Source: a virus. From it: 44,830 nucleotides of DNA. The notes under the pieces are model-generated. The model ran no database searches and was not told the origin of the DNA. It worked only from the letters and a program-made list of their open reading frames with translations. Below, piece after piece: positions 4,245 to 30,153 of the stretch. How positions within the stretch are numbered: the first letter of the stretch is position 1; the number at the start of each line of letters is the position of its first letter. Made by a program: the position numbers and the translations under genes. The stretch is taken from positions 1 through 44,830 of the IMG/VR virus record IMGVR_UViG_3300024265_000098. One strand, given 5' to 3'.

Positions 4245-4245
4245 C

Positions 4246-5378: not shown

Positions 5379-5391
5379 AAGGTTTGAACGG
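5293..5391 (+). repeat. 9-bp tandem repeat, 11 in-register units
   Basis: Eleven consecutive 9-base units can be read in phase, with consensus near GTGYGAAGG (for example GTGCGAAGG, GTGAGAAGG, GTTTGAAGG, GTGTGAAGG). The array covers the 3' end of the PurD-like gene and runs to within three bases of the next start codon. It is the longest member of a family found at about 18 loci. Confidence 0.9.
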
Positions 5392-5393
5392 TA

Positions 5394-5903
5394 ATGGGAA
5401 CAGAAAAAGAGCAACTGAGATTTATACGAGTAATCGATCCGAACGTGTTCGATCTGATACCGCGGAAGCTCTTCGAGCAGGTTGAGAGTCTCGAGCCCGC
5501 GCACGTGGATAATTTGATCAAGTACGGTAAGCACATGCTGAACCGGTTCGAGTCGAAGGGCGGGGAAATGGTGCTTGTGCCGAACATTCTGGTCCACGTA
5601 GCCGTAATGGTGGACTCCAATACCAAGATCCACGGGATCTTATGGGCGGAGTTCGATATCGTCGAAGAACTAATCTACGTGCAACTGGCGTCGGTGGAAA
5701 AGGCATATCAAGGCGGGTCCAGGAAGCTCATAACAGATTATCTTTTTGGTCTTGACGTTGACCCGCGGTGCAAGGGCAAGATAAGAATGAACACTGCAAA
5801 GCCGAGAGCTTACGAGCGAGCGGGCTGGAAGCGATCGAAGATGATCATAATGGAGATTGACAATGTGGGCGAAACAGATCCAGATTCGGACGCAGAGGCT
5901 TAG
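5394..5903 (+). CDS. GNAT acetyltransferase-like phage protein
   Basis: Predicted 169 residues from ATG 5394, immediately after a 9-bp repeat array whose GAA(A/C)GG units may act as the ribosome site. The segment IHGILWAEFDIVEELIYVQL followed by a helix (EKAYQGGSRKLITDYLF) and RAYERAGWKRSK resembles the beta4-beta5-alpha core and C-terminal hook of GNAT folds. Similar proteins often sit just upstream of ejection-protein genes in podoviruses. The acidic tail (ETDPDSDAEA) overlaps the next gene by 41 bases. The acetyl-CoA loop is not a clear match, so this could be a structural descendant of the fold. Confidence 0.5.
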   Translation: MGTEKEQLRFIRVIDPNVFDLIPRKLFEQVESLEPAHVDNLIKYGKHMLNRFESKGGEMVLVPNILVHVAVMVDSNTKIHGILWAEFDIVEELIYVQLASVEKAYQGGSRKLITDYLFGLDVDPRCKGKIRMNTAKPRAYERAGWKRSKMIIMEIDNVGETDPDSDAEA

Positions 5904-6837
5904 CCGGCCGACGCATTCCTGGCGGTTCCTCGGCGGCGGCGGGTCGAAGACAAAGACGGTAGATCCATTCGCGGAAATACGGCCGTTGCAGCAGCAGTTA
6001 AACCAACTGCTCGGCGAGCAGCTCGGCCAGGGAGTGGAGCGGTTCGGCGGTGAGAGAGTGCCGGGAGCATCCGGGCTGCAAACAGCCGGCTTCGACGTTG
6101 CTCGGGGTCTGACCCCGATAGCATCGGGCGGTCAGCAATTCGGAGCTCAGCAAACGGCAGGTCTGGATCCGGGGACAGCCGGCCGCGTAACGGGCCAGGC
6201 GGAACAAGCGCTCAGTGGGATACTCGGACCACAGGACCTGGAAGCAGTGAACCGACTCTTCCAGACGGGCTTCGTTGATCCCGCGCAGGGGAATATCAAC
6301 CGATTACTGAGAGGTGTATCGGAGCGATTCGCAGGGGCGGGCTCGGCGGGAGCGACAGGAGGCGGGGCGTTCGGTCGAAGCCTGGGCCGGGCGGCCGGGG
6401 AGGCGGGTACGCAGTTGAACGCTCAACTTGCCAAGCTGCTCTTCGAGACGGACCAGGCGAATAAGAACAGGCAGTTGCAGGGCGTGGGCGCCGCAACGAA
6501 TCTGGCGCAACTTCCCGGGCAGGTCGCCGGCCAGGGTGAAATACTCGGACTGGGGCCACTGGCCAGTTTACTCGATATCGGCGGGATCCAGCGGGGAATA
6601 CAAGGCGAGCAGGGCGAAGCGGGTTTCCAGGAGTTCCTACGCACGCGAGATTTCAATAATCCGTTCCTGAACCTGCTACCGACGGCGTTTAACGTACCGG
6701 GCAAGACAATCGTTCAGGAGCAGCAAGGACCGGGACTCGGTGGTTTTCTTGGAACGGTGGGAGGTGCGTTCCTGGGTCCAGCGGGCGGCGCGTTGGGAGG
6801 TGCCCTCGGTAAGAGTCTATTCGATGGCGGTGAATAG
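5863..6837 (+). CDS. Internal virion / ejection-type protein, Gly/Ala/Gln-rich
   Basis: Predicted 324 residues. ATG 5863 is preferred over the upstream TTG because GGAG lies eight bases before it. The protein is rich in Gly, Ala and Gln. It has a basic N-terminus, a long low-complexity helical middle (EQLGQGVERFGGER, AGSAGATGGGAFGRSLGRAAGEAG) and a C-terminal glycine-zipper stretch (GGFLGTVGGAFLGPAGGALGGALG) that could insert in a membrane. This composition and its place before two further large proteins match the ejection-protein cluster of short-tailed phages, such as the T7 gp14 or P22 gp7 positions. No direct homology is claimed. Confidence 0.6.
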   Translation: MWAKQIQIRTQRLSRPTHSWRFLGGGGSKTKTVDPFAEIRPLQQQLNQLLGEQLGQGVERFGGERVPGASGLQTAGFDVARGLTPIASGGQQFGAQQTAGLDPGTAGRVTGQAEQALSGILGPQDLEAVNRLFQTGFVDPAQGNINRLLRGVSERFAGAGSAGATGGGAFGRSLGRAAGEAGTQLNAQLAKLLFETDQANKNRQLQGVGAATNLAQLPGQVAGQGEILGLGPLASLLDIGGIQRGIQGEQGEAGFQEFLRTRDFNNPFLNLLPTAFNVPGKTIVQEQQGPGLGGFLGTVGGAFLGPAGGALGGALGKSLFDGGE

Positions 6838-6846
6838 GAGAAAATC

Positions 6847-7794
6847 ATGGCAAATGGTGGATTCGTAAATATACCGTTCGATCCCAACACGGACGCGCTG
6901 AGCATTGCGGGCAGAGCACTCGCTCCCGCGGCTCACGCATTCGGTCAGGGTCTGTTCCAACCATTAGAGCAAAGGGACCAGAACGACGACGTCGCTGCGA
7001 TCAAGCAATGGGTGGATGGCGGCATGGAGGGGGCCCCGCCGTCAGCCCGTACTCCGTTCGGCCAGGAACTTACGGGGACGTTGGTGCTCAGGCAGGCAAA
7101 CGAAGAAATAGCCGACCCCGCCGGTAAGACGTTGCGGCTGGAGCGGCGGAGGTTGACCCGTGAAAGTCAATTGCGAAAGGCCCAGACGTTAGAATCAGGG
7201 GCCCGCGCGGCGGCGATCACTGAGCCGGGGGTGGGAAAGGGCTTTACAGCGGGTGAACGATCTTTGTTCGGCGGCGATATCGTCAGTCGCATAGATAATG
7301 TGAAAACTGAGTTTTCGCCAGGCATAAAAGGTCGCAAGCAATCAAAGTTCATCGAGGAGTGGAAAGCCTTACAAGAGGATCCGACCGTCGGTTGGGAAAA
7401 CCTCAGCCGGCCGCAACGGATACAACTATGGCAGATGTGGAACTCGGCACTTGTCGGACGATCAAAAGAAGATAGTGAAATCCAATGGGACCCGACGAGT
7501 AGTGAAGTTCAAAAACTCAAAAAGGAAATGTTCGGAACCGCCAAGATAGACGACGTGGAAGATCCGAGCGTCAGGCGGCCACTTGGCGAGGAATTGAGCA
7601 AAACACTACCGGAAGGGATAACATTTCAAGAACTGGCGGAGCTCGCACAGGGTCTGGACGGGGCCAGTCAAAACGAACTCCTCGAGATACAGCGTCGATT
7701 CTTCGATGCGCAGAAATCCGGCGACGCGCAGGCAATCGCAAACGCACGTTCGGACTATCAGCAGGCAATCGCAATACTGAGAGGGCGTCGATAA
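6847..7794 (+). CDS. Putative internal virion protein
   Basis: Predicted 315 residues with GGAG upstream of ATG 6847. It is helical and charged, with no signal peptide or membrane segment, and is rich in Glu, Arg and Gln toward the C-terminus (ELLEIQRRFFDAQKSGDAQAIANARSDYQ reads as coiled coil). Its stop codon shares a base with the next start (TAATG), so translation is probably coupled to the giant protein downstream. The most likely role is a second ejection or internal core protein; no specific family was recognised. Confidence 0.55.
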   Translation: MANGGFVNIPFDPNTDALSIAGRALAPAAHAFGQGLFQPLEQRDQNDDVAAIKQWVDGGMEGAPPSARTPFGQELTGTLVLRQANEEIADPAGKTLRLERRRLTRESQLRKAQTLESGARAAAITEPGVGKGFTAGERSLFGGDIVSRIDNVKTEFSPGIKGRKQSKFIEEWKALQEDPTVGWENLSRPQRIQLWQMWNSALVGRSKEDSEIQWDPTSSEVQKLKKEMFGTAKIDDVEDPSVRRPLGEELSKTLPEGITFQELAELAQGLDGASQNELLEIQRRFFDAQKSGDAQAIANARSDYQQAIAILRGRR

Positions 7795-10700
7795 TGGGGC
7801 TGTTCTCAGGCATAGTAGAGGTAAAGAACGCCCCGATCACGGAACCCACCCTTCGGCCGGGGCGGGCGCCGGGGATTGCTATTACACCCGGGCAGACGGC
7901 GGCGCCGAGCGACTCGCTACTGGCGCGAACGGCAACGGGAATTCCAACTCAACCGCAACCGGCCCCGCCGGGCATGTTCGCCGAGATTCTGGAGAAACGG
8001 ACAGGGACCGAAAGCGGCCGCGGATTCTGGCGTGCACTTGCCGAAGATCCGGAAACGAAGATTCCTTTCCTCGGCGGCGTTATTCAAGGCGGGCGATTCG
8101 CGGGAGTGATACAATCGTCTCGGAGATTGAGCAGGAACGATCCGGAAGAATATTTCAGAAGCGCCGCAATCAACGCTCAGGCGGCTGCGCTAACAGCAGG
8201 GCCGGGGCAACCGCAGAATATCCAAGAGCAGGCAGACGCTTTGAGAACAAAAGACCTGCAACAGGTGGAAAACTACCTAGAGCAGGTCAATCGCCAATAC
8301 ACAACCGCCGGGCAGGTTGGTCGGATCGTCGGCGATATGCCGGCGTTCATGATTGAATTTCTCGCAACGGGCGGGTTGAAGAAGCTCGGCGAGGGTACTG
8401 CCAAGCAAATCGGTAAGAGACTTCTGAAAGACCGGGCTACGTCATTGGCGGGAAGAGCGGCTATCGGAACGACGGCTTTCCTCAGCGGGGCGGCTTTGAG
8501 ATCGGCAGGTTTGCCTCAAAGGGGTGTTGAGTCGGTCCTGAAACGGCAGTTGCCCAAAGGCATAACATACGGTCCGGAAGGCGAGATCAGTATCCAGGGA
8601 CCGGGAGAGGAACCGTGGACGTCTGTGGTTAAGGGTCTCGGCGATCATTATATCGAGATTCTCAGCGAGCAATCGGGAGAGGGATTGCAGGCGGCAGCAC
8701 CATTTCTGGGTAAGGCGCTGCAGAAAACACCGTTTCTGGGCAAGTTACTACCGAAGATTCAGAAGAAGTGGCTTGCACTGCCGGCGAATAAAGTCAAAAC
8801 CGCAGCGGACTTCAGTACGGAAATAGGCACAGCGACCGGCTTTAACGGCGTTTTGGGTGAGATCGGTGAAGAATTCCTGGGCGATGGACTCAGGGCGGTA
8901 TTCGATATAGACGACTTCGGCGCCGGCAAAGACGCCGGGCCGCTGGAAAGACTCAACGCCGCAATCGAAAGGGATATTGAGAACCTCCCAGTAATGGCGG
9001 CGGCTTTTGCAGTGCCGGGAGTTGTCAGGTTCGGGGCGGCCAGGGCTCTTGGTGCGGCCGAACCTCAGCGGGACTTCAGGCGAGAGGCAGACGCGGCGGC
9101 GGCCGTTGGCGGCGCCGAAGCCGTGCAGGCGTTTAACCGAGCCGGCGGAGCGGCTGGTATGTCGCTGGAACAACTCGAAGCACAGGTGAAATTTCTCAGA
9201 GACACGCTCGGAGAGGCCCCCGCAGGTCAAAAAAAAAGTGAGATCATCGCCCAGATAACGGAACTGGAAGATATCCTCGGCCAGAGAAAGTCAATAGATC
9301 TCGTAGAAAAATCACAAGCGGCCATCGAAGCGGGCGCCGGTACGAAGTTCGTCAGTAGGCGATCAGATCTCTTGCGAGCGGCGGTAAAGTCGTTCAAGGA
9401 GGGTAAACAGACCGCAGAGGTGGTCCAGGACCGGTTGGATAGACTGAACGAAGGACTGGAAGAGGCGGGGATCCAGCGGCCCGACCAGATCACAGCGGAA
9501 GAAGTCAGACCGGCCTTGCAAGAGCAGTTCAGAGCCGACGTTGCCGCCGGCGAGGCCGAAGCGGATAGAGCCGACGTTGCCGCGGACGCCGAAGAGGCAC
9601 AACTTAACCAGCAACTGGACGATATGACGGAGGCGTTGCGAGATGAACGGACTGAGGAACGCATTGCGACCGAGGCGGTGAGGGAAACCGCTGAACAACA
9701 AGTGTTTGAAGGTGAGAAGGGTGCGAAGGTTGAAGAAGAAGCCTTGGAGGCCCGCGATGAGTTTGAGCTTTACACGCAGAATATCCCCGAGGCGTCTGAG
9801 AAAGAGATCGTGCAGGCCATGCTCGAGGATGGCGCCGAGCCACCCGTCGCCCTGGTTGAGAAGTACACCGACCTGCCCGGGGCCGAGGCTTTCCTGGAGC
9901 AGAAACGCATCGATCAGTTTGTCCCGGAACCGCCGGTAGAACAACCAGTCACCGAACCCGACATTCCCGGTCAGCAGGTGATACCGGAGGGGGAAGAAAA
10001 GCCGCCAGAGGAAATGACAGAGGAAGAGTTCGTCAGAGAGAGGCCCACAATCCTGATGCGACGAATAATCGCACAGCAACAGGCTGAGTTGACGAAATTG
10101 CAGGCGAGACTTGATAAGGTACAGGGTCGCAAAAAGGGCAATGCTGAAAAACGGCGTGGTATACAATCGCAAATTGACAGGTCAAAAGAACGTATTAAGC
10201 TTGCGAGAGCGGCGAACAGCCCAGAAACCTACGCGAAGGCATGGGACCGCAACTTCTCAGCTTCAACAATAACAGTGGAAGGCAAGCCGAGTCCGAATTT
10301 GTTCAAGTTCCAGCCGGAATTTCTTGCATCAGAACACAGAGAACTCCTAAGCCAACCCCGCGGCGTTGCAGAATCTGCTAAATCCACTGTTCAAAAGATG
10401 ATCGAGGCGGAGGTCGCCGAGGAATTGGGACTGACCGAGGGTACGCCGGCGGCTACTACCCAGGAGCGGACTGAGGAAGAGTTGACGGGGCTTTCGAAGT
10501 CGCGGCGGGCTCGGATTAAGGGTCAGACTGCAACGAATATCCTTCAAAGTGAAATCTACCAAACCGCGTTGGAAGGCCAGGACGTTACCGAGCGTGAAAT
10601 CGACGTTGGTTTCTACTTTGTGGAAAAGTCGGGTCAAGGTGAAATCGACCAGGTGATTCAATCCGTTCCCAAGGGCAGGATCAGGACGGCTTTGAAGAAG

Positions 10701-13700
10701 ATGTTTACATTCGACCGTTCAGACCTTGTGAAAAACGGCGGTCAAGCCATCAGTTGGGACGTAGCCGTTCAGGCGGGATTCGAAAGGACTCAGGGCACGG
10801 AGGGGCATCTGGACCTCACAGAGTTCGCAGAGCGTGTGAAACAGGCGTTGGAGGGCAAGAAGCCGGAGCCGGGTAGCAGACGTCTGAATAGCCGGGCGAT
10901 GGACACAGCAGCGGAGCAGGGCGAACCGTTCGTCGAAATGATGGTGAATAAGTTCAGAATGCTCCACAACGGCTCGACCAAGGAAGAAATCAACGATATG
11001 ATCCTTGACGTCGGTGATCGATTCAATATCAAGCGATCCGGGCTTATCGACGATATGATCGACGGGGATCAGATAGTACGCTTGCAGAGCCTCACAGACG
11101 CCGAGTCAGACGAAGAGATCGACAGGCTGGCCGAGCAGCAGGTGGAAGCCGAGGACGTCAGCGACGCAGAGGGGGCGGCTAAGGCGGTACTGGAAGCCAA
11201 CGGCATCGACGTTCACATCGAGCAGGTCGAGATCATCGACGAAGCGACCCTGGCCGATCACCTGCCGGAAAAACCGGACGACGACGTTCCATTCGAAGTC
11301 AGGGGAAAACCCACCGGCGCTGCACTGACAACGAGCGATCGACAGATAATCCTCCTGGCAAACGGCGCGGACTCTCAGACGGGCTACCACGAGGGCTACC
11401 ACGTCATCAGACCGAGACTGACGGCGAGGGACCACGACATTCTAGCTCGTAATTTCGCAAACGAAGAGGCTGAAGCGGCGGCATTCGGTGAGTACGCCCA
11501 GGACAAAGCCACGCAAAAGGGCCAGATTAAGTTCATCTTCGAGAAGCTGATGAGGTTCTTGAGGCAGATCAAATCCGCCTTGACAGGAGCGGGATTCAGG
11601 ACACACGAGCAGATATTCTTTGAAATAGCAGAGGGGACTGCCACGGTTGCAGACGCCAAAGCTGCCAAGGTCCAGTTCGAAAGAAAGCCCGGCGACATTC
11701 AGCGGGAGGCTGAGAAGAGGGCCCGGGTAAAGGCCAAGGCTGCTCGCCTGAAGGCGGCCAGGAAGCCGAAGGTATCCAAGGCTCGGCTCAGGATCAAGCT
11801 GAAAGATACGACTCCATTCCTTAGACCGGATCTCAGACCGTTACCGGAGGAGGAACTTGTCAGGCCGGCGGTTCCGGAGACTAAGGGCGCGGCAAAGCGG
11901 TTCAGTGAAGAGGCGAAGCTGGAATTCAGGACTCGGGAGAAAACATCGCTCAGGGAGGCACTCAGCCGCAAGGCGCAAGAGTACCTTCTCGGATTCGATA
12001 GACGGGTAGAGGCGATGAGCGCCCGGCTGGAAAAGATCCACCCGCTACTGATGAGCAAGGTCAGAAGGTATGTTTTCGACGTCGATACCAGAACGACCCA
12101 ACTGCTCGAGCAGACGGCGCCGTTCATTAAAGGCATAAAAAAGATCAAAGGCGACGACGCCCGCGACTTGAAATATGCTTTGAACAATAACTGGCGAGCG
12201 GAAACCGAGAGGCTTGTAGAAAAATACAACCTTCAGGAAGAATATCAGGCACTCAGAGACGTTCTGGACGCCATTCACGAAGCGGGTAACGAAGTCGGAT
12301 TGGAGATTCTGTACCGGGGTGACCACTTCCCCCGCCGAGTCAAAGACTTGAAAGGGCTATTGCGGTTCCTCGATACATCGGATAAGCATTCGGCATTCTC
12401 AGATGCCATCCGCAAGCGTCAGGAGCAGGCGGGCGGGCGGCCACTCAGCGATAATGAAGTGACGCAAGTCGTCAATACTCTACTCCGCGGCTTTAGAGTT
12501 GGGGGAGTGAGTCTGTCGCGGCCGGGTGTCGTTAAGGATAGATCGATCGAGGAATTCGATCGGAGCATTGAGAACTTCTACTTCGAACTCGACGAGTCGT
12601 TGGAAATGTACATCCAGGACATGATCCAGTCGATCACGACGCGAGAATTCTTCGGGAAGCAGACTTCCGAAATTGCAAAGCTCCGAGCCCAGGAGAGTCG
12701 GTTGCGGACCAGACTGCACAAAACCCAGGCCAGGACGGGAATCACCAAGCCGGTCACGCTGGAAAAGCATAAGAGCACCCTGGCGAGGGCGGCGGAAAAA
12801 CTCCGCGAGATCCACGAAGAGCTCGAGAAGCACAAGAACCAGAAACTGGAAGACTCGATAGGATACTTCGCACTGCAACTCGACCTGGACTTCGAGGACC
12901 AGGCCCAGGTATTCGATATGCTCAAAGCCATTATGGAACCGAGAGGGTTGAACGGAGCGACTCGGGACTATGTGAAGCTGGCTTACGTCGACGTCCTGGC
13001 GAATATTCCCGTTGCCCTGACCCAGTTGGAAGAACTGGGGCTCAGTGTCTATAGGGACAATCTGAACGCAATCCCCGCGGCCCATAAGGCGCTGCTGAAA
13101 AACAACGGACTGAACCTGGAAGATATAGGTATAAGTGACATTAACCAGTACATGCGAGACTTGGGCCTGCAGGGGATTATGGATAAGGCAATGTTCGCAA
13201 TGAGGGCGGTGGATACATTCGGTAAGCAGACGCTGCTCAATACCGAACTCGCCCGATCGGTCCGACTGGCGAAGAACAGCCCGAACAACGCGAAGTTCGT
13301 CTCGGAAATGAGGAGGGTCTTCGGCGACGATGCCAGAGACGTTATTAACGACCTGACCGCCGAGCGCATGACGGATAATGTGAAGTTCCTAATGTTCTCG
13401 AAGATACTCGACCTGCAGCCGTCGGCGATTACAGAAACGCCGGAATATTACGCCGCCGGCGGCAACTGGCGCATCCTCTACATGCTGAGACAGTTCACGT
13501 TGAAGCGCATGAGCGTACTTAGGGACAAAGCAACAAAGACAATGACCGGCACGCCGTCGGAGAGACTAGAGGCAATGGCCGACCTGGCGAAAATGCTGGC
13601 GATACTAACGGCTTTCGGAGTCGGAAAAGACTTCATAAAGGACTGGTATCTGGGTAAAGACTTCGATCTGGCAGATAGTGTGCTCGATAACATGCTGCAA

Positions 13701-13949
13701 TATCTTTTCCTATCGAGGTGGCGGCTGCAGTCGCTCGACCGCAGGAGGATCGGCGCTGTTGTCGGAGAGGAATTCGGGCCGCCGTTCAAAGCGATCGAGG
13801 GGGTATGGAGCGACGTTAAGAAAGGCGAGATCAACCGTAGCGTCCGCAGTATTCCAATCATCGGCGAGGAATATTACTGGTGGTTCGGCGGGGGGAGTAG
13901 AAAAGGCGAGAGGAATGAATTCCTGGATATTTACGATCCGTTTAATTAA
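7794..13949 (+). CDS. Giant internal virion protein with HEXXH metallopeptidase motif
   Basis: Predicted 2051 residues, the longest gene, read without interruption. Residues ~1-400 hold Gly/Ala-rich helical segments with possible membrane-active stretches (PFLGKALQKTPFLGKLLPK). Residues ~430-850 are charged coiled coil. HEGYH at about residues 1199-1203 fits the HEXXH zinc-peptidase signature, with an acidic stretch (ANEEAEAAAFGEY) ~20 residues later that could give the third ligand. The C-terminal ~700 residues are helical and resemble the tails of large internal core proteins. Such proteins are thought to be ejected into the host with the DNA and to modify the envelope or host proteins. A 9-bp repeat patch is embedded in frame near residue 640. 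Confidence 0.75.
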   Translation: MGLFSGIVEVKNAPITEPTLRPGRAPGIAITPGQTAAPSDSLLARTATGIPTQPQPAPPGMFAEILEKRTGTESGRGFWRALAEDPETKIPFLGGVIQGGRFAGVIQSSRRLSRNDPEEYFRSAAINAQAAALTAGPGQPQNIQEQADALRTKDLQQVENYLEQVNRQYTTAGQVGRIVGDMPAFMIEFLATGGLKKLGEGTAKQIGKRLLKDRATSLAGRAAIGTTAFLSGAALRSAGLPQRGVESVLKRQLPKGITYGPEGEISIQGPGEEPWTSVVKGLGDHYIEILSEQSGEGLQAAAPFLGKALQKTPFLGKLLPKIQKKWLALPANKVKTAADFSTEIGTATGFNGVLGEIGEEFLGDGLRAVFDIDDFGAGKDAGPLERLNAAIERDIENLPVMAAAFAVPGVVRFGAARALGAAEPQRDFRREADAAAAVGGAEAVQAFNRAGGAAGMSLEQLEAQVKFLRDTLGEAPAGQKKSEIIAQITELEDILGQRKSIDLVEKSQAAIEAGAGTKFVSRRSDLLRAAVKSFKEGKQTAEVVQDRLDRLNEGLEEAGIQRPDQITAEEVRPALQEQFRADVAAGEAEADRADVAADAEEAQLNQQLDDMTEALRDERTEERIATEAVRETAEQQVFEGEKGAKVEEEALEARDEFELYTQNIPEASEKEIVQAMLEDGAEPPVALVEKYTDLPGAEAFLEQKRIDQFVPEPPVEQPVTEPDIPGQQVIPEGEEKPPEEMTEEEFVRERPTILMRRIIAQQQAELTKLQARLDKVQGRKKGNAEKRRGIQSQIDRSKERIKLARAANSPETYAKAWDRNFSASTITVEGKPSPNLFKFQPEFLASEHRELLSQPRGVAESAKSTVQKMIEAEVAEELGLTEGTPAATTQERTEEELTGLSKSRRARIKGQTATNILQSEIYQTALEGQDVTEREIDVGFYFVEKSGQGEIDQVIQSVPKGRIRTALKKMFTFDRSDLVKNGGQAISWDVAVQAGFERTQGTEGHLDLTEFAERVKQALEGKKPEPGSRRLNSRAMDTAAEQGEPFVEMMVNKFRMLHNGSTKEEINDMILDVGDRFNIKRSGLIDDMIDGDQIVRLQSLTDAESDEEIDRLAEQQVEAEDVSDAEGAAKAVLEANGIDVHIEQVEIIDEATLADHLPEKPDDDVPFEVRGKPTGAALTTSDRQIILLANGADSQTGYHEGYHVIRPRLTARDHDILARNFANEEAEAAAFGEYAQDKATQKGQIKFIFEKLMRFLRQIKSALTGAGFRTHEQIFFEIAEGTATVADAKAAKVQFERKPGDIQREAEKRARVKAKAARLKAARKPKVSKARLRIKLKDTTPFLRPDLRPLPEEELVRPAVPETKGAAKRFSEEAKLEFRTREKTSLREALSRKAQEYLLGFDRRVEAMSARLEKIHPLLMSKVRRYVFDVDTRTTQLLEQTAPFIKGIKKIKGDDARDLKYALNNNWRAETERLVEKYNLQEEYQALRDVLDAIHEAGNEVGLEILYRGDHFPRRVKDLKGLLRFLDTSDKHSAFSDAIRKRQEQAGGRPLSDNEVTQVVNTLLRGFRVGGVSLSRPGVVKDRSIEEFDRSIENFYFELDESLEMYIQDMIQSITTREFFGKQTSEIAKLRAQESRLRTRLHKTQARTGITKPVTLEKHKSTLARAAEKLREIHEELEKHKNQKLEDSIGYFALQLDLDFEDQAQVFDMLKAIMEPRGLNGATRDYVKLAYVDVLANIPVALTQLEELGLSVYRDNLNAIPAAHKALLKNNGLNLEDIGISDINQYMRDLGLQGIMDKAMFAMRAVDTFGKQTLLNTELARSVRLAKNSPNNAKFVSEMRRVFGDDARDVINDLTAERMTDNVKFLMFSKILDLQPSAITETPEYYAAGGNWRILYMLRQFTLKRMSVLRDKATKTMTGTPSERLEAMADLAKMLAILTAFGVGKDFIKDWYLGKDFDLADSVLDNMLQYLFLSRWRLQSLDRRRIGAVVGEEFGPPFKAIEGVWSDVKKGEINRSVRSIPIIGEEYYWWFGGGSRKGERNEFLDIYDPFN
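9702..9735 (+). repeat. 9-bp repeat patch inside the giant virion gene
   Basis: About 3-4 units of the GTGYGAAGG family lie in the middle of the 2051-codon gene and encode FEGEKGAKV. They sit in the charged coiled-coil section, where an insertion would be tolerated. Confidence 0.6.
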
Positions 13950-13980
13950 CTGCGAACAGTGCGAAAGGTGAGAAGGGTAC
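13948..13980 (+). repeat. 9-bp repeat with AACTGC head
   Basis: Begins AACTGCGAA at the stop codon of the giant virion gene and continues with GTGCGAAAG and GTGAGAAGG units, ending five bases before the next ATG. The purine-rich units probably provide the ribosome-binding site of the 13985 gene. Confidence 0.8.
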
Positions 13981-14841: not shown

Positions 14842-15654
14842 ATGACAGATGAAAAGGTTATCCGCGTTTTCCCCCGAAAAACCAAGTGGTCACCAACTGA
14901 CGACCTTGCCTTCTTCGATGAGCCCCCGCTTTTCGACCTGCCCGACCTGCCGGTAATGGTATCTGTGACGTTCACCTGGGACATCAGGCGAGGGCGTGAA
15001 CTCTCGCGGTCCTGGGCTCGTAGGAGTAATGATGTTCGCCTTGGGGGACCTGCGTTTGACAGCCCAGGTAATGAGTTTGTGCCGGGGCGATTTCTCAAAG
15101 AAGGTGTGACAATCACATCGAGAGGTTGCCCAAAGAGCTGTAGTTTCTGCTACGTTAAAGGACGTGAGGGCAAGATCAGAGAACTGCCGATCCGCGACGG
15201 TTGGGTGGTCCAGGACAACAATCTCCTAGCTTGCTCGACAAGTCATATTAAAAAAGTCTTCAACATGCTGCACAGGCAACGTCTTGCAGCATCGTTCCCG
15301 GGCGGACTAGACCTGGACTACCTCAGAGAATGGCACATAGATGCCTTGAAAGAACTCCAGGTGAAGCATAAACTACGCGAGATATGGGTCGCTTTCGACG
15401 GGGTAAGTGGTATAGCGAAACTGGACAAAGCGACAGAATTGCTGGCAGATTTCACGCAAAGTCGAAAACATGCCTACGTCCTCATCGGTTATGAAGGGGA
15501 CACGACGAAAGATGCTGCCGATAGGTGTGAAAAAGTCTACAACGCCGGATTCCTGCCATTTGCCATGCTCTGGGATGGCAACTCAGACCCCGCATGGAAA
15601 CCCGTACAAAGACGATGGATCCGGCCGGCACTCTACGCGAGACCACAGTCATGA
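14842..15654 (+). CDS. Radical SAM family protein
   Basis: Predicted 270 residues from ATG 14842; the frame can be extended to a TTG at 14821, but that would lie within the promoter. Cys96, Cys100 and Cys103 form the CX3CX2C motif (CPKSCSFC) that binds the 4Fe-4S cluster cleaving S-adenosylmethionine. Downstream, LACSTSHIKKVFNML and GGLDLDYL resemble the strands and turns of the TIM-barrel core, and REIWVAFD is another likely strand. No SPASM cysteine-rich tail and no B12 domain are seen. The substrate is unknown: modification of a host or phage protein, tRNA or nucleotide are all possible. It stands alone with its own promoter between late and early regions. Confidence 0.8.
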   Translation: MTDEKVIRVFPRKTKWSPTDDLAFFDEPPLFDLPDLPVMVSVTFTWDIRRGRELSRSWARRSNDVRLGGPAFDSPGNEFVPGRFLKEGVTITSRGCPKSCSFCYVKGREGKIRELPIRDGWVVQDNNLLACSTSHIKKVFNMLHRQRLAASFPGGLDLDYLREWHIDALKELQVKHKLREIWVAFDGVSGIAKLDKATELLADFTQSRKHAYVLIGYEGDTTKDAADRCEKVYNAGFLPFAMLWDGNSDPAWKPVQRRWIRPALYARPQS

Positions 15655-15693
15655 CACAACTTCCAACCAATCAAATCACCGTCGGCGGCCGCC

Positions 15694-15975
15694 GTGAGCA
15701 ATAATCAATCGTCAATAGACAATAGACAATGCCTCTGCGGCCAGCCCGCCCACGTTGCAATTGTTATCGAGGAATTCCCGATCGTCTCTAACGACGTTCC
15801 GTTCGGCCGGCACGTATGCCGGCGCTGTCACTTCAAGCACAAGCAATTCAAAGCGGAGCAGCCTATCGAGTGGCTGGACTACTTCGAACCTCGACTGCCA
15901 CTATTCCCATTCGAGTACGGACTGCCTCAAAACGCGATACTCCGCAGGGGACGCGGTATTCCGTTTGAAAAATAA
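15694..15975 (+). CDS. Small zinc-ribbon-like protein
   Basis: Predicted 93 residues from GTG 15694; the start is uncertain because no strong ribosome site is visible. CLCG near residue 13 and CRRCHFKH near residue 43 make a C-x-C...C-x2-C-x3-H set suited to binding zinc. The rest is acidic and aromatic without a known domain. The first codons lie in a heptamer repeat (15700-15731), so its N-terminus (SIDNRQC) is repeat-derived. The minus-strand 16798-17040 product has a comparable cysteine layout and a similar SIDN start. Confidence 0.5.
   Translation: MSNNQSSIDNRQCLCGQPAHVAIVIEEFPIVSNDVPFGRHVCRRCHFKHKQFKAEQPIEWLDYFEPRLPLFPFEYGLPQNAILRRGRGIPFEK
15700..15731 (+). repeat. Heptamer repeat (AATAGAC type)
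   Basis: Four to five 7-base units related to TCAATAG/ACAATAG in tandem. The same family occurs at about 17024-17050, 25243-25268, 30100-30125 and 32811-32842. Confidence 0.75.
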
Positions 15976-16038
15976 AAGAACTTTTCTACTACTCATAAGT
16001 ACCGTGTCCCAAGAGTGTTACAACGCCCCTGTAATAAA

Positions 16039-16100
16039 TATGTGACACGCCCATATTTTACCCTTGACATATATGTGACACGTCGGCTATAATGTCACAT
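16039..16100. promoter_or_regulatory. Three ATGTGACA operator-like sites
   Basis: ATGTGACA occurs at 16040-16047 and 16073-16080, a spacing of 33 bases (about three helical turns), and inverted as TGTCACAT at 16093-16100. The second and third sites form an inverted repeat with a 12-base gap spanning the -10 box. This suggests cooperative binding by a repressor or activator, phage- or host-encoded. Confidence 0.6.
16064..16093 (+). promoter_or_regulatory. Consensus sigma70 promoter
   Basis: A perfect TTGACA (16064-16069) and a perfect TATAAT (16088-16093) are separated by 18 bases. A start point at about 16100 would place transcription exactly at the base of the structured RNA described next. 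Confidence 0.8.
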
Positions 16101-16190
16101 GCTCATTGATACCAAGTACAAACGATCCAAAAGTGCCGTCGAAGAACCCCGGGTATCCATGAGCAAGGTCACCGCTTCGGCGGCTTTTTT
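16100..16190 (+). ncRNA. Small structured RNA with its own promoter and terminator
   Basis: About 90 bases run from the predicted start to a T-run. TGCTCAT at 16100-16106 pairs with ATGAGCA at 16159-16165, then after one mismatch GATACC pairs with GGTATC, giving a closing stem of about 13 bp around a mostly unpaired 37-base loop (16114-16150). A CCGC-TTCG-GCGG hairpin and T6 (16172-16190) end the transcript. There is no credible open frame. The role is unknown: a regulatory antisense RNA, a protein-sequestering RNA, or the lead-in of a longer message if readthrough occurs. Confidence 0.65.
16172..16190 (+). terminator. Intrinsic terminator of the small RNA
   Basis: CCGC / GCGG closes a TTCG tetraloop and is followed by C and six T residues. 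The stem is short, but the UUCG loop is exceptionally stable. Confidence 0.7.
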
Positions 16191-16230
16191 AACTGCAAGT
16201 GTTTGAAAGTTCGAAAGGTGTGAAGGAAAG
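16191..16230 (+). repeat. 9-bp repeat with AACTGC head
   Basis: AACTGC is followed by GTTTGAAAG and GTGTGAAGG-like units directly after the small-RNA terminator. The repeat leads into the ribosome site of the 16241 gene. Confidence 0.7.
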
Positions 16231-16240
16231 GATCAGAGTT

Positions 16241-16456
16241 ATGTTTTCAGTGCAGCAGAAACGCGATATTTCAGCCTCAGTTCAAGAGACTTTACGGGCA
16301 ACGGGTCACCCAGAGCTACCAGAGACAGAGATAGAGTTCGTGCTTGACGTCAAGGGAAAGGAAAGTTGGTCTTGGGCAAAAATCCAGAACAACGGCAGCG
16401 TAGAGAATCCCTCGGTGAATCCACATAACGAAGCTCAAGACCCAGCAGAAGCTTGA
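16241..16456 (+). CDS. Small hypothetical protein
   Basis: Predicted 71 residues. ATG 16241 has GGAAAGG eleven bases upstream; the longer frame from 16199 would translate the repeat and is rejected. The N-terminal half (QQKRDISASVQETLRATGHPELPETEIEFVLDV) looks like a small helix-strand domain. WSWAKIQNNGS is a conserved-looking core, and the C-terminus is Asn/Pro-rich. No family was recognised. It is the first gene after the strong promoter, so it may be expressed early by readthrough. Confidence 0.5.
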   Translation: MFSVQQKRDISASVQETLRATGHPELPETEIEFVLDVKGKESWSWAKIQNNGSVENPSVNPHNEAQDPAEA

Positions 16457-16475
16457 AAGGGTGAGAAGGTAACGG
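16452..16475 (+). repeat. 9-bp repeat, about 2 units
   Basis: GCTTGAAAGG and GTGAGAAGG units overlap the stop codon of the 16241 gene. Confidence 0.55.
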
Positions 16476-16489
16476 TCTTTGAAAAGTGA

Positions 16490-16760
16490 AGAGGCAAAAC
16501 GGGTACTGGACGGACACATGCCCGTATTAACCTGGCGGTGAGCTAGGGAGAGTCACGGAGATAAACTCCGCTCCGCCAGGGAATCATTATCGCCAGGCTA
16601 CGAGGTGGCGGTGTGCACCTAAGAGACCTGTGGAGCTCCAAGACGTAAGTTGGATTAGTAGCGTGGCTGGCGTGAACGTTGTGTCCTACGGTAGGCTTGT
16701 CCCAGCAAGGCCGGACGCAAAAACCAACACAACAGGCGTCACCTCAAAGCCGGCGATCTA
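16490..16760 (+). ncRNA. Large structured non-coding RNA candidate
   Basis: About 270 bases have no credible gene on either strand but dense complementary segments. Pairs seen by eye: 16499-16503 with 16521-16525; 16531-16538 (CCTGGCGG) with 16573-16580; CGGAG/CTCCG at 16556-16570; 16591-16596 with 16667-16672 and 16597-16601 with 16658-16662, an 11-bp stem with a 4-base bulge; TCCAA/TTGGA at 16637-16654; GTTGTGT 16678-16684 with ACACAAC 16727-16733; CCTA/TAGG at 16685-16695. GAGGTG 16602-16607 could pair with CACCTC 16740-16745 as a pseudoknot. It matches no RNA class I can name. Strand is assigned from its neighbours. Confidence 0.55.
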
Positions 16761-16762
16761 AA

Positions 16763-16793
16763 GACAGAACACAGAATACAGAAGACAGAACAC
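16763..16793 (+). repeat. Heptamer repeat (CAGAACA type)
   Basis: About four 7-base units of CAGAACA/CAGAATA/CAGAAGA. The related array is at 40768-40811. Confidence 0.75.
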
Positions 16794-16797
16794 GAAC

Positions 16798-17040
16798 TTA
16801 CGCCGAGAGGCTGGCTTTTGAGATTACCCCGCCATAGGCGGGTTCGCAATATTCTACTTTGTCGGCAGGGTCACGAAAAGGAGTCCTGAAATGAGCATGG
16901 CCGCAACTCCGGCAGAAGGCACGGCCCGTAAACCCGTTTACGTAATCGCGGGGCCAGATCAGGCATTCAGTAGCGGGTACAAATATGATCCGAGCCGGGA
17001 GAGAAGCCCGGCGACAAAAATAGCAATTGTCAATCGACAA
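16798..17040 (-). CDS. Minus-strand zinc-ribbon-like small protein (candidate)
   Basis: Predicted 80 residues on the opposite strand to almost everything else, beginning at a TTG within a heptamer repeat. CYFC at residues 6-9 and CRSCGHAHFR about 35 residues later form two knuckles spaced as in zinc ribbons. A similar layout is seen in the 15694 product, which favours a real gene over a chance frame. There is no ATG and no visible ribosome site, which argues against it. It lies between two heptamer repeats (16763-16793 and 17024-17050), as if it were a separate cassette. Confidence 0.35.
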   Translation of the reverse strand: MSIDNCYFCRRASLPARIIFVPATECLIWPRDYVNGFTGRAFCRSCGHAHFRTPFRDPADKVEYCEPAYGGVISKASLSA

Positions 17041-17050
17041 TTGACAATAT
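17024..17050 (+). repeat. Heptamer repeat (AATTGAC/AATCGAC type)
   Basis: Tandem CAATTGT/CAATCGA/CAATTGA units; a divergent member of the AATAGAC family. It covers the putative start of the minus-strand zinc-ribbon frame. Confidence 0.65.
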
Positions 17051-17054
17051 AACA

Positions 17055-17219
17055 GTGACAGTCACGGCAAGGGAAATTACAGCGGCCTTGCGGCTTGAAA
17101 AAGAAAGGAGATTCCTGCTCCAAACTATCAAAAAAAAAGCACAGAAGTTACTAACCACCTCAAAGAAAGATCGGGCCGGTGGCCGTGGCCGGCCCGTAAA
17201 AACAAAAACAAAGGTGTGA
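17055..17219 (+). CDS. Small basic protein with AT-hook-like tail (candidate)
   Basis: Predicted 54 residues from GTG 17055. It is strongly basic, with a helical middle (RLEKERRFLLQTIKKKAQKLL) and a C-terminal GGRGRPVK that matches the RGRP core of AT-hook minor-groove binders. The DNA for RGRP lies in an 8-bp GC-rich inverted repeat (CGGGCCGG/CCGGCCCG, 17172-17196), so the motif could be a by-product of a hairpin. No ribosome site is evident, so this is tentative. Confidence 0.3.
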   Translation: MTVTAREITAALRLEKERRFLLQTIKKKAQKLLTTSKKDRAGGRGRPVKTKTKV

Positions 17220-17238
17220 AGGTGTGAACGGTAAAAGG
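17211..17238 (+). repeat. 9-bp repeat, about 3 units
   Basis: AAGGTGTGAAGGTGTGAACGG units stand between the AT-hook-like frame and the DUF2303 gene. Confidence 0.65.
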
Positions 17239-17267
17239 GACGAACCTAAGAAAAAAGGAGTTGAATT

Positions 17268-18092
17268 ATGTCAGACAACACAATCACAGGATTTCTAAGT
17301 GATATTGAACTTGGTAAGAACCATGCAATCTCAGTCGCCAAGGAAGTATTGGCCGATGGAAAGGAAAACGTCACCGTCAATCTTTCGCGGACACCGATAA
17401 TGCCTGAGAGAATGGAGTCGCCTAAGAGGGGGCATATATTCTTTACAGTGACCGGGTTTGTGAACTACTTGAAAAAGAACAAGACGGACAATACCCTGGT
17501 CCTTGCCGACGTTTCCGATTGCAGGATCGTCGCGGTGCTAGACGATAAGGCGAAAGACGGTTTCGAAATGATATACTTGAAGCCGGAAAGACACCCGGAG
17601 TTTGTGCTGCTGTCACAAATGCTGGATCAGCGTATGCCATTACCTCAATTTGCCGAGCTTGCGAAGCGAAATCGGCGACGACTGGGGGCGACAGAAGACG
17701 AGGGCCGTGACTTTGCGATCACGATGCAGCAGATCACGATATCCTCGAAAGTGACGGCTTGCATTGGATCCGGTAAGACCAATACGAACGGCGTGATGTG
17801 CACAACAGAGGTCAAGAGTGGCACGCCCAGGACTGAAGAGGTCGAACTGCCGGACACTATAACAGCAACAGTTCCTCTCTACATACAGAGACCGGAGCGG
17901 ACGTTCACGATCGACCTAACAGTTATTGCGAGCCAGACCGAAGCGAGAATTATGGCGGACGCTCCGGAACTCGAGGTCCTCAAACACCAGGAAATGACGT
18001 TCATTCTGGAAGAGGTTGTCGAGGGTCTTGGCGAAGTGGTCGAAGCGAGCGTCGGGCGTGTAAGCCATAATTGTTGGGCGTACAATAACTAG
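17268..18092 (+). CDS. DUF2303 (YfdQ-like) family protein
   Basis: Predicted 274 residues; AAAAGGAG eight bases upstream gives a strong start. HIFFTVTGFVNYLKKNKTDNTLVLADVSDCRIVAVLDD and MPLPQFAELAKRNRR match the pattern I know from the DUF2303/YfdQ family of phage and prophage proteins (Phe-rich beta segment, then an A-V-L-D-D strand, then a Q-F-A-E-F motif). C-terminal strands complete a mixed alpha/beta protein of normal family length. The biochemical role is unknown; members usually sit in early regions near recombination or single-strand-binding genes, as here beside an HNH-like gene and upstream of the putative origin. Confidence 0.7.
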   Translation: MSDNTITGFLSDIELGKNHAISVAKEVLADGKENVTVNLSRTPIMPERMESPKRGHIFFTVTGFVNYLKKNKTDNTLVLADVSDCRIVAVLDDKAKDGFEMIYLKPERHPEFVLLSQMLDQRMPLPQFAELAKRNRRRLGATEDEGRDFAITMQQITISSKVTACIGSGKTNTNGVMCTTEVKSGTPRTEEVELPDTITATVPLYIQRPERTFTIDLTVIASQTEARIMADAPELEVLKHQEMTFILEEVVEGLGEVVEASVGRVSHNCWAYNN

Positions 18093-19675: not shown

Positions 19676-19870
19676 GTGTCATGTGCGGTTTTCCATTATC
19701 GGCCGACCTGTCATTATGACGACTTCCACGAAAAGTTTGCATATCATCCACCCCGGGAGCCCGACGAAAATGAGTTGGTTAGTTTCCACTATGTTAATTT
19801 GGTTTTCGACGCAATCGGGCAGGGCGGTTGTTCCGCCCGTATCCCGGGGGTTTTAACGATGAAGGTTTGA
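19676..19870 (+). CDS. Doubtful small ORF
   Basis: Sixty-four codons from a GTG with no good ribosome site. The product is rich in His, Tyr and Phe (FHYRPTCHYDDFHEKFAYH) and ends in the 9-bp repeat. A GGGCGG/CCGCCC hairpin lies near its 3' end. It may be a gene or only a spacer between 19652 and 19883. Confidence 0.25.
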   Translation: MSCAVFHYRPTCHYDDFHEKFAYHPPREPDENELVSFHYVNLVFDAIGQGGCSARIPGVLTMKV

Positions 19871-19884
19871 AAGGTGTGAAAGAT
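19862..19884 (+). repeat. 9-bp repeat, about 2 units
   Basis: GGTTTGAAAGGTGTGAAAG ends at the ATG of the 19883 gene and probably serves as its ribosome site. Confidence 0.6.
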
Positions 19885-25242: not shown

Positions 25243-25268
25243 AAATAGTCAGTAGGAAATAGACAATG
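25243..25268 (+). repeat. Heptamer repeat (AATAGTC type)
   Basis: AAATAGTCAGTAGGAAATAGACAATG runs into the integrase start codon; an imperfect member of the AATAGAC family. Confidence 0.6.
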
Positions 25269-26159
25269 AAAAAGGTCGGTAGGAAGCCGCACGGGTATTT
25301 CAGGGACGAACGGGCGGTTCATGAGATTATTCTTTTGAAGCGGCGGGCGCGCAAAGGCGTTGTGGACCGCGAGGGAAATCCAAAGCCCACGCCCTACGCC
25401 GTGATCGCGCGGGAGCTGAACGACCAGGGCCATCGCACTCAAGCGGAAAAACTTTGGTACGGGCGGCTTGTTTGCCGGATACTGGCGAGAATCGAAAAGG
25501 GCAAGGACCAGCCCAAGCGGCGCCAGAAGAACCAGTTGGAGTCGCGAGACTTCCTGAGCGACGAAGAGATAGCGATGTGCCGGGCTGTTTATAAGGGTCA
25601 GGAGGTGATGCTATTCGAAACACTGCTGCGGACGGGACTTAGAGCGAGCGAACTGTGTTCGCTGCAGGTCCGGGACCTGGGGATATACCGCGGGAAAAGC
25701 CAGATCGACGTCCGGGAGGGGAAAGGGTGCAAGTCCAGAACGGTTTTTGTCGGGCCGGAAATAGGAGTGATGTTGCGAAGGCACGCAGTGCGAGGAACCG
25801 ACAAGGAAAACATCGAAGGGTATAGCTGGGATCAGCGAATTGAGAGAAATCAAAAGCGGCCTGTGTTCTCTAATTCGGAGCACAAACCGATCACATATTC
25901 CAACCTGTACTACCGTATAAAATCTATCGCTCGGCGATCGGGGGTTTTGCACCTGCATCCGCACGCTTTGCGGCATACGTTTGCGCGAACTTTATACAAT
26001 TATAAAAACAACATCCAGTACGTTCAGGAGCAGCTCGGGCATAGTAGTGTATCGACAACCGCGATCTACGCTAAGACCGGCGATAGTAAGAAGTTGCAGG
26101 AAATGGAGGCTGTGGATAACCTGTTCTCACCGAGGGCAGAACCGGCGGTAGTACAATAG
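25266..26159 (+). CDS. int: Tyrosine-family integrase
   Basis: Predicted 297 residues. The catalytic domain is complete: Arg126 (TGLRASEL), Lys about 156 (GKGCKSR), His233-x-x-Arg236 (HALRHTF), His259 (LGHSS) and Tyr268 (TAIYAK). The N-terminal ~85 residues (TPYAVIARELNDQGHRTQAEKLWYGRLVCRILARI) look like the I-A-x-x-L-N-x-x-G...W-x-x-x-x-V-x-x-I-L helix-turn-helix segment familiar from large serine recombinases, rather than a usual SAM-like arm. It catalyses site-specific strand exchange between phage and host attachment sites, or resolution of genome dimers. No repressor was recognised, so temperate life is not certain. Confidence 0.9.
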   Translation: MKKVGRKPHGYFRDERAVHEIILLKRRARKGVVDREGNPKPTPYAVIARELNDQGHRTQAEKLWYGRLVCRILARIEKGKDQPKRRQKNQLESRDFLSDEEIAMCRAVYKGQEVMLFETLLRTGLRASELCSLQVRDLGIYRGKSQIDVREGKGCKSRTVFVGPEIGVMLRRHAVRGTDKENIEGYSWDQRIERNQKRPVFSNSEHKPITYSNLYYRIKSIARRSGVLHLHPHALRHTFARTLYNYKNNIQYVQEQLGHSSVSTTAIYAKTGDSKKLQEMEAVDNLFSPRAEPAVVQ

Positions 26160-26307: not shown

Positions 26308-26979
26308 ATGGCAAAGAAAAAGACGAAAAAGAAGAAGCGAAAGAGTCCGGCCGCTGCACTCAGTAAATACAAAGACTCTTTCGCTGAAACGGTTAAATTC
26401 CTCATAATCGAAGCTGGGATCATAAACACTCGCCGAGAGCCTAAATGGGGGCTGATCGCAAAACTGCTCGGGGTAACCAACGAAACGATTCTCCAGTGGC
26501 GACACCAGTCGGGCAAGCACTACAAGGAGGAATTCGCAAAGGCTTGCCAGGAGGGCATTGACGCAGCCACGGCGGGTAAGGTAAAACTCAACATCATCAG
26601 TATGGCAACTATGCCCGTGCGAGAAAAGACGCTCGAGGTCAGGATAGTCGGGCCGAAGCCGCCGCCTGCCGGTTGGAATAAGCCGGATTATCTCGAATGG
26701 GCAAAGAAGCACTTGAAGCTCAAATTCGGGAAAAAGGACACTATAGCCACGATACGGCGTGCGATTAAGATCGAATGCGCTAAGCGGAAAGTCGAAAAAC
26801 TGGTTGTTGTAGGCGAGAAAAGAAAGAATAAAGTTGACCTCGGAGCGGCAAAGATAATAGTTGCCAACGTCGGCCCCAAAAAGGACCGGTGGCTATCGAA
26901 AGAAGCTGTTGTGCTGGAAGGCGACACGTTCGCCGAGGCGATGGCGAAGGCTTTGAAATCGAAGGATAGGCCGAAGTGA
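26308..26979 (+). CDS. Small terminase subunit-like DNA-binding protein
   Basis: Predicted 223 residues from ATG 26308. A very basic N-terminus (KKKTKKKKRK) leads to a helix-turn-helix (KWGLIAKLLGVTNETILQWRHQSG), then a middle section and a basic C-terminus. Small terminases have this order, and it is two genes before the large terminase. It is longer than average and the C-terminal part (VDLGAAKIIVANVGPKKDR) is unfamiliar. It should recognise the packaging site and form a ring with TerL. The alternative is a transcription regulator. Confidence 0.55.
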   Translation: MAKKKTKKKKRKSPAAALSKYKDSFAETVKFLIIEAGIINTRREPKWGLIAKLLGVTNETILQWRHQSGKHYKEEFAKACQEGIDAATAGKVKLNIISMATMPVREKTLEVRIVGPKPPPAGWNKPDYLEWAKKHLKLKFGKKDTIATIRRAIKIECAKRKVEKLVVVGEKRKNKVDLGAAKIIVANVGPKKDRWLSKEAVVLEGDTFAEAMAKALKSKDRPK

Positions 26980-26986
26980 ACTACCA

Positions 26987-27032
26987 ATGTGCGAAGAGTG
27001 TGAAGGTGTTAAGAGTGTGAAGGGAAAACGGT
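26987..27032 (+). repeat. 9-bp repeat, about five units
   Basis: TGTGCGAAG, AGTGTGAAG, GTGTTAAGA and GTGTGAAGG units between the TerS-like gene and the next start. Confidence 0.8.
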
Positions 27033-27251
27033 ATGGATTATCCGAGTTGGTCATGCCCGGTCCAGGCAAGAATACTGAACGATAGGCTTGTAACTGCGAT
27101 TCAAGTGCCTCCCATGACAACAGCCGAACAAACACAATTCGAGAAGTTATTGAAGATAATCGACAAGCGATACCGCCAATCTAAGAGTAACCGCATGGTG
27201 GAAGAGATCATCGAAGCCATTGAAAGGTCGTTGGGGACAGTTTTGCCGTGA
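27033..27251 (+). CDS. Small hypothetical protein before terminase
   Basis: Predicted 72 residues from ATG 27033, after the repeat. The C-terminal two thirds are helical and basic (EQTQFEKLLKIIDKRYRQSKSNRMVEEIIEAIERS). Its stop overlaps the terminase GTG by three bases, implying translational coupling. It could be a packaging accessory; no family was recognised. Confidence 0.5.
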   Translation: MDYPSWSCPVQARILNDRLVTAIQVPPMTTAEQTQFEKLLKIIDKRYRQSKSNRMVEEIIEAIERSLGTVLP

Positions 27252-28699
27252 GCATATCTGATCAAATTCAGGAGATAGCGGCTTTAGGGCGTAAGGATTA
27301 CGGATGGTTCATGCGTAACGCGCTCGACGTGAAGCCTGAGCACTACTGGGAGGGCATGGAGCGAGTGTGCGCATCCGTGCGGGATAATCCTCAGACAGCT
27401 GTTTCCGCCGGACATGGGGTCTCGAAGACTTATGTGGCCGCCAGGATCGCTTTGACGTTTCTGTATTGCTACGTACCGTCGATCGTGGTCACAACGGCGC
27501 CGAGCGAAGATCAGGTGAAAGGGTTACTCTGGCGGGAGATGCGCGAGGCCCACGCAAACGCCCGTATACCCATGGGCGGTAAGGTCTCAACGCTACAGAT
27601 CGATATGCAGCCGGAAAGCGGACTCAGGTGGTTCGCAATTGGAGTCGCCACCAAGCCCGACACGGTAACAGGTGAGGCAACCAGGCTGCAGGGCTATCAT
27701 TCACCGCATTTCCTATTCATTCTGGACGAAGCGGCTGCTATCCTACCGGAGATATGGAAAGCGGTTAAGCACGTGGGAGGGCCGTTCAAGCGGGTATTGG
27801 CGATCGGCAACGCCACCTCATCAACGGGGGAATTCGTAGCGGCGCTCAAAAGTCCGAATTGGAACCGGCTACAGATATCCGTCAAGGACACGCCGAACTT
27901 CATTAACAGTAATAACGACATTCCGGGCCTGTACGGAACGGAATACGAACGTGATATCCGAACGACTTACGGCGAGGACTCCGACGAATACGCCGTTAGA
28001 GTGCTCGGGGCGATATCTGCAAAGGCGGCCCTCGGCAGTTATTACGGCAGGAAACTGGACGACCTCGAGAGCAAGGGTCGTATCTGTGACTTGGATGCCG
28101 ACCCGCACAAACAAGTTCACATCGTTCGAGATCCCGGTTACACGTCGGCTTTCTGGTTCTTCCAGTTGCTCGACTACGACGTTCATTTCATCAGGTACCA
28201 CGAGGACTCGGGTCTGGGAGTTGAGGATTATGCGAGATATTTCGACGAGTTAAGGCGTGAATGTGGCTATATTTACGGCGATAACATAGTCCCGTGCGAT
28301 ATGGACAACAACGCGGGCCGCGTAATTACAGGGCAGACGGCACTCGAAACGCTGCAGGACCTAGCCATCACTTGCGGCCGCCCCGTGGCGTTACAAGTCG
28401 AGAGGACTGAGATCGAGGGTATCGAGCGGACAGTTAAATTCTTGACCAGGGCCAGGTTCGATAAGACATTGTGTGCGGTTGGGTTAGACCGATTAAGGGG
28501 CTTCCACGAGCGGATCAATAAGCAGATGAGCACGGAGGACCACATCGCCTACACCGGATCCCCGGACAAGGACGGGATCAACGACCACGGCGCCGCCGCT
28601 ATGAGGTATGCCAGTAAGGCCATCGTCGAAGGTAAGGTGGGCGGCGGCAGTATGACGGCCCAGGACGTTGAGGACCTATGGAATGAGGCTAAGAGGTAA
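27248..28699 (+). CDS. terL: Large terminase subunit
   Basis: Predicted 483 residues from GTG 27248. The N-terminal ATPase has a Walker A-like loop (SAGHGVSKT, residues 53-61) and Walker B (FLFILDE, 155-161), followed by a coupling segment (AIGNATSSTGEF). The C-terminal RNase H-like nuclease has acidic residues in RDPGYTS (Asp295), PCDMDNN (Asp351/353) and GINDHGAAAMRY (Asp446), the usual three-carboxylate set. Together they cut concatemeric DNA and pump it through the portal. The domain set is complete and the length is normal. Headful or cos packaging cannot be told from this alone, but the circular map agrees with headful permutation. Confidence 0.93.
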   Translation: MSISDQIQEIAALGRKDYGWFMRNALDVKPEHYWEGMERVCASVRDNPQTAVSAGHGVSKTYVAARIALTFLYCYVPSIVVTTAPSEDQVKGLLWREMREAHANARIPMGGKVSTLQIDMQPESGLRWFAIGVATKPDTVTGEATRLQGYHSPHFLFILDEAAAILPEIWKAVKHVGGPFKRVLAIGNATSSTGEFVAALKSPNWNRLQISVKDTPNFINSNNDIPGLYGTEYERDIRTTYGEDSDEYAVRVLGAISAKAALGSYYGRKLDDLESKGRICDLDADPHKQVHIVRDPGYTSAFWFFQLLDYDVHFIRYHEDSGLGVEDYARYFDELRRECGYIYGDNIVPCDMDNNAGRVITGQTALETLQDLAITCGRPVALQVERTEIEGIERTVKFLTRARFDKTLCAVGLDRLRGFHERINKQMSTEDHIAYTGSPDKDGINDHGAAAMRYASKAIVEGKVGGGSMTAQDVEDLWNEAKR

Positions 28700-28737
28700 C
28701 TGCTAAGGTTTGAATAGTGCGAAAGGTGAGAAGGATG
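28698..28737 (+). repeat. 9-bp repeat with AACTGC head
   Basis: Begins AACTGCTAAG at the terminase stop codon, then GTTTGAATA, GTGCGAAAG and GTGAGAAGG, ending at ATG 28735. Confidence 0.85.
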
Positions 28738-29169: not shown

Positions 29170-29194
29170 GGAGTACAGGGAGGCACAGGGATGA
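29003..29194 (+). CDS. Small single-pass membrane protein with coiled coil
   Basis: Predicted 63 residues with AAAGGAGG upstream of ATG 29003, a strong start. Residues 5-27 (VMTAICVGCLILVIVGMVGAYYA) are hydrophobic and the rest is charged helix (WEEIEEQRQDYQNRAELRDEEYREAQ). This is the topology of inner-membrane spanin or T7 gp18.5-like proteins, though short. It overlaps the next gene by four bases (ATGA). Confidence 0.6.
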   Translation: MPNIVMTAICVGCLILVIVGMVGAYYAGMGRGARLAWEEIEEQRQDYQNRAELRDEEYREAQG

Positions 29195-29385: not shown

Positions 29386-29405
29386 GGCAAGGAGGCGTAG
29401 ACTCA

Positions 29406-30092: not shown

Positions 30093-30099
30093 GTGTATT

Positions 30100-30125: not shown

Positions 30126-30153
30126 TAAAGCGGCCCTACTCGTTTGAACGAAT

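Follow-up and report, generated by a model that had tools for sequence, protein, structure and literature searches.

A gene-free, modestly folded segment in the early region of a tailed phage genome

Does a stretch of phage DNA that lacks genes but can be drawn with many stems encode a large structured RNA, or is it a spacer between the genes of an operon? The question is raised by positions 16490-16760 of a phage genome, which an earlier note proposed as a large structured RNA of an undescribed kind. The window analyzed here is the whole of IMG/VR virus record IMGVR_UViG_3300024265_000098 (44,830 bases), whose integrase, terminase, portal, and head genes identify it as a tailed phage, probably temperate. 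We find that the segment is gene-free, modestly structured on the plus strand, and without detected relatives, and with about even confidence we read it as a phage-specific untranslated spacer within one early operon.

The closest relatives of the portal protein are in uncultivated phages, at 48-55% identity, and in one Desulfobacterales MAG contig, at 53%. The capsid/portal search also identified IMG/VR contig 3300009788_000235 as the same virus; it spans 26574-44830 and 41-13979 of the window, and not the candidate. Positions 1-47 of the window match this contig at 18192-18146 in reverse orientation, and window position 41 onward and the window end overlap on it by ~129 bases; this pattern suggests a circularly permuted genome and an inverted artefact of assembly where the window begins.

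Genes, promoter and coding signal around the segment

The recognized genes flanking the candidate are all on the plus strand, and the gap that holds it (Table 1) sits in the phage early region. No plus-strand ORF of at least 60 codons is present in the ORF list for 16457-16890, and codon-usage scores across most of 16470-16650 are those of wrong frames. Coding signal is thus absent from most of the gap, and the description of a gene-free segment of about 270 bases is borne out. None of the 19 IMG/VR relatives of the upstream 71-codon gene has the candidate segment 3′ of the gene, and the phages sharing this gene pass directly into other sequence behind it. By inspection, the small RNA is not evident 5′ of the gene in these relatives either.

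The perfect sigma-70 promoter, ~400 bases 5′ of the candidate, is the only promoter-like site that a consensus scan finds in 15500-17500. The same consensus scan, limited to promoters of this type, found neither a promoter nor a terminator of the candidate's own flanking it. The sigma-70 promoter would drive a short RNA ending at the terminator-like hairpin at ~16166-16187, whose T run, uncounted by the terminator consensus scan, is seen in the sequence; the candidate segment lies 300 bases beyond this small RNA, behind the 71-codon gene. Two direct ATATGTGACACG boxes (16038 and 16071) are positioned around the promoter, and a putative RNA of ~90 nt follows, with a long stem and an end resembling a terminator; from its sequence the whole arrangement (16036-16190) has the look of an early promoter under repressor control that is followed by a leader RNA.

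Two kinds of short repeated sequence were seen in passing. A GAAAGGTGTGAAGG-like motif occurs at many sites in the phage, several of them just 5′ of genes (16204-16226, 17210-17222, 5352-5367, 19860-19880, 28720-28735, and 35976-36006), and simple repeats of the types TCAATCGACAATTGACAAT and ACAGAACACAGAATACAG occupy gene-free or gene-end sites (15703-15730, 17023-17050, 16764-16795, and 40770-40796).

Table 1. Positions of genes, predicted RNA elements and alternative pairings in the window
Feature	Position	Strand	Details
Perfect sigma-70 promoter TTGACA-18-TATAAT, 5′ of small RNA	16064-16093	+	Consensus scan
Small-RNA candidate	16097-16190	+	14-nt stem arms TGCTCATTGATACC/GGTATCCATGAGCA (93% complementary), then GC-rich hairpin and T run
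71-codon gene, upstream	16241-16456	+	19 IMG/VR relatives
Gene-free gap holding candidate 16490-16760	16457-16890	+	ORF list, codon-usage scan
Predicted hairpin 1	16499-16525	+	7-bp stem ACGGGUA/UGCCCGU, 16499-16505/16519-16525; pair probability 0.98; z -2.3
Predicted hairpin 2	16531-16580	+	8-bp outer stem CCUGGCGG/CCGCCAGG, 16531-16538/16573-16580; pair probability 0.94
Alternative 11-bp helix, 3′ strand	16587-16597	+	16531-16541/16587-16597; pair probability 0.00
Predicted closed domain	16590-16756	+	Closing helix UCGCCaGGCU/AGCCGGCGA, then 9-bp helix 16602-16610/16737-16745 (pair probability 0.99)
Predicted inner hairpin	16678-16733	+	8-bp stem 16679-16686/16713-16720; pair probability 0.93
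Alternative pairing GUUGUGU/ACACAAC	16678-16684/16727-16733	+	Pair probability 0.00
Alternative 12-bp helix (one bulge)	16743-16821	+	CUCAAAGCCGGC/GCUGGCUUUUGAG; region 16740-16850 z -2.7
Probable 53-codon gene, downstream	16891-17052	+	AAGGAG 5′ of ATG; weak positive codon score
Integrase	25266-26159		
Large terminase	27248-28699		
Portal	30229-32205		
Major head protein	33741-34709		

Predicted folding of the segment

Folding energies were compared with those of dinucleotide shuffles. On the plus strand the candidate folds at -100.3 kcal/mol (z -1.81, with 10 of 200 shuffles as good), and trimming to 16499-16757 gives z -2.3 to -2.4, with 1.3 to 2% of shuffles as good, although the test sequence itself had guided the choice of boundaries, which inflates these z values. 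The complement strand has a z of about -1, and the plus strand folds better. Ensemble diversity lies at the 10% level of the shuffles, fewer than 1% of which combine energy and diversity as low as the candidate's. Across a grid covering the genome, 13 of 223 windows (~6%) have z of -2.4 or below, and grid windows at 16419 and 16619, which overlap the candidate, have z of -0.7 and +0.9. Several gaps of 220-700 bases elsewhere in the genome and in two related phages have z values equal to the candidate's or lower. By the comparison with shuffles that the earlier note recommended, the segment therefore folds modestly better than its controls (z -1.8 to -2.4), but it is equaled by 1.3 to 5% of them and by ~6% of genome windows.

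Within the candidate, the hairpin 2 region (16527-16585) is the strongest piece (z -3.5, 1 of 300 shuffles as good), and the closed domain taken whole has a z of just -1.7 to -1.9. The segment had been credited with at least seven compatible stems, including 8-bp and 11-bp pairings; the stems exist, but not all of them can form together. The 11-bp pairing occupies the 5′ arm of the 8-bp stem in hairpin 2, along with part of the closing helix's 5′ arm, and because these strands are shared it is incompatible with both; forcing it changes the predicted energy from -110.3 to -102.2 kcal/mol, a cost of ~8 kcal/mol. The 12-bp helix would disrupt the closed domain, and the state using it is ~9 kcal/mol less favorable than the best fold. 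The candidate contains 18 stems of at least 7 bp, one of them a 7-bp pseudoknot-like pairing (16512-16518/16680-16686), and shuffles contain 17.3 ± 4.8, such that the count is at chance. The longest stem is 11 bp, and stems of at least that length are also found in 19% of shuffles.

Searches for known families and relatives

A search of Rfam 15 (4227 families) gave no match anywhere in the window at the gathering threshold and only chance-level matches at E up to 10, in agreement with the view that the segment resembles no known class. The sole Rfam name returned for the gap at the permissive threshold is isrN (RF01396), a weak match over 16718-16818 whose 15.7 bits are far under the gathering score of 44 and whose E-value (0.35) is that of chance. 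ARAGORN predicted no tRNA or tmRNA genes in the window.

No homologue of the candidate was detected in viral, phage, plasmid, or bacterial collections, by searches that clearly diverged homologues would escape. Searches from the adjacent DUF2303 gene and one more early gene yielded no relatives; the capsid/portal route led to ~14 relatives at 48-55% portal identity that lack the segment, many of these records being short fragments with early regions partly covered. Back-translated segment patterns gave nothing in IMG/VR and GTDB genomes, a loop-based pattern of the candidate had no match, and a single-sequence covariance model had no hits among 34 related records or 291 genomes. A BLASTN search of 395 genomes (around the Desulfobacterales MAG) returned three matches of 21-38 bases; each falls within a long protein-like ORF (aminotransferase-like, peptidase-like, or secretin-like) with no extension of the match, and we took them as chance. 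Because no relatives were found, and phages with the 71-codon gene continue into other sequence, we see no sign of selection keeping the candidate.

A separate gap, directly 5′ of the portal gene (window 30130-30228), contains a terminator-like hairpin and T run that are kept in relatives L042, L025, L047, L048, L052, L040, L024, and L045. Its stem differs between relatives by paired changes (CCCGA/UCGGG, CCUGG/UCAGG, and CCCGG/CCGGG), a conserved GUCGGACnUACUUCUUUACCAnAAGAAAUAG-like stretch lies 5′ of the hairpin in several relatives, and the gap holding it in G004 has a folding z of -6.6; the hairpin region has no Rfam match. Because relatives keep the hairpin with paired stem changes, the portal-upstream gap appears to be a better candidate than 16490-16760 for an RNA whose structure is conserved in these phages.

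Interpretation of the segment

If the segment is an untranslated operon spacer, it would probably share a read-through transcript with the 71-codon gene and the downstream genes, and in the mRNA it would form one or two solid hairpins, at 16499-16525 and 16531-16580, followed by a looser domain rich in GC (16590-16756). Its likeliest role, if any, would be in cis, with the hairpins behind the 71-codon gene protecting or punctuating the message, and they may also separate translation of the two flanking genes. The lack of coding signal through most of 16470-16650, the better folding of the plus strand, the z of -3.5 at hairpin 2, the plus-strand orientation of all surrounding recognized genes, and a sole promoter-like site ~400 bases upstream are all consistent with a spacer. 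So too are structure statistics that are mostly near chance (stem counts, diversity, and the 6% of genome windows), the 220-700-base gaps elsewhere with z values as low or lower, and the absence of conservation in all collections searched. A spacer accounts less readily for the small fractions of shuffles that fold as well (about 1 to 5%) or match energy and diversity jointly (<1%), and long-range helices with pair probabilities near 0.99 are needless in a plain spacer.

The segment could instead be a genuine structured non-coding RNA of an undescribed class, whether a free-standing RNA cut from the operon transcript or a large cis-regulator of downstream genes, and we consider this possible but unlikely. 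The plus-strand folding bias (z -1.8 to -2.4), the well-determined helices, and the empty Rfam search would fit such an RNA, but the number of stems and the longest stem are at chance, homologues were not found in the collections searched, and neither its own promoter nor its own terminator was seen in the consensus scan; as judged from predicted folds, the structured-RNA reading is weakly supported. It is doubtful that the segment represents a new class of ~260-nt structured phage RNA from a temperate-phage early operon, comprising a pair of hairpins and a closed multi-helix domain, perhaps with a long-range pseudoknot as well, and seen so far in a single genome.

Readings as a DNA site or a small gene are less likely. 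TGGCGGTG-like boxes are present in both orientations (at ~16533, 16574, 16591, 16606, and 16667), including a direct repeat TGGCGGTGAGC/TGGCGGTGTGC and inverted copies CCGCCAGG and TCGCCAGG, and might bind a phage regulator or replication protein; however, the boxes are arms of predicted helices, their spacing is irregular, no initiator gene is recognized nearby, and folding is weaker on the complement strand, whereas little strand bias is expected of a DNA palindrome, and we regard a DNA-level element as improbable. A small or decayed gene is highly improbable: the 76 open codons of frame 16531-16761 include a 43-codon GTG ORF (16630-16761) with a weak positive codon score, but the entire open frame scores as wrong frames do (-2.7 per 30 codons), Pfam and tblastn searches gave no match, and no ribosome-binding site is evident. 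Hardly credible is a two-state RNA switch, in which the four helices would form two mutually exclusive sets (hairpin 16531-16580 with closed domain 16590-16756, versus the 11-bp helix 16531-16541/16587-16597 with the 12-bp helix 16743-16821), as the second set is ~12 kcal/mol less stable (-98.2 versus -110.3), neither set on inspection masks the ribosome-binding site at ~16880 or forms a terminator, and such stems are expected by chance.

Few large structured RNAs are known from phages, and the segment, were it truly a new class, would extend that set. On present evidence it illustrates that a GC-rich 270-base spacer easily yields a convincing list of stems by eye, and that shuffles of equal composition give as many of equal length. 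GOLLD and ROOL can occur in phages or prophages, and these RNAs and OLE are several hundred bases longer than the candidate, conserved, covarying, and represented in Rfam. The candidate resembles such large ornate phage or bacterial RNAs (e.g., PMC12286853) in being non-coding and multi-helix, but by Rfam search it matches none of the three. The operon-spacer reading is meant narrowly: an orphan non-coding hairpin spacer of a phage operon, a kind with many examples, for which we claim no new RNA family. Although it is longer than the usual processing hairpin of phage operons, it is comparable to their intercistronic hairpins, which are likewise stem-loops between co-directional genes of one operon.
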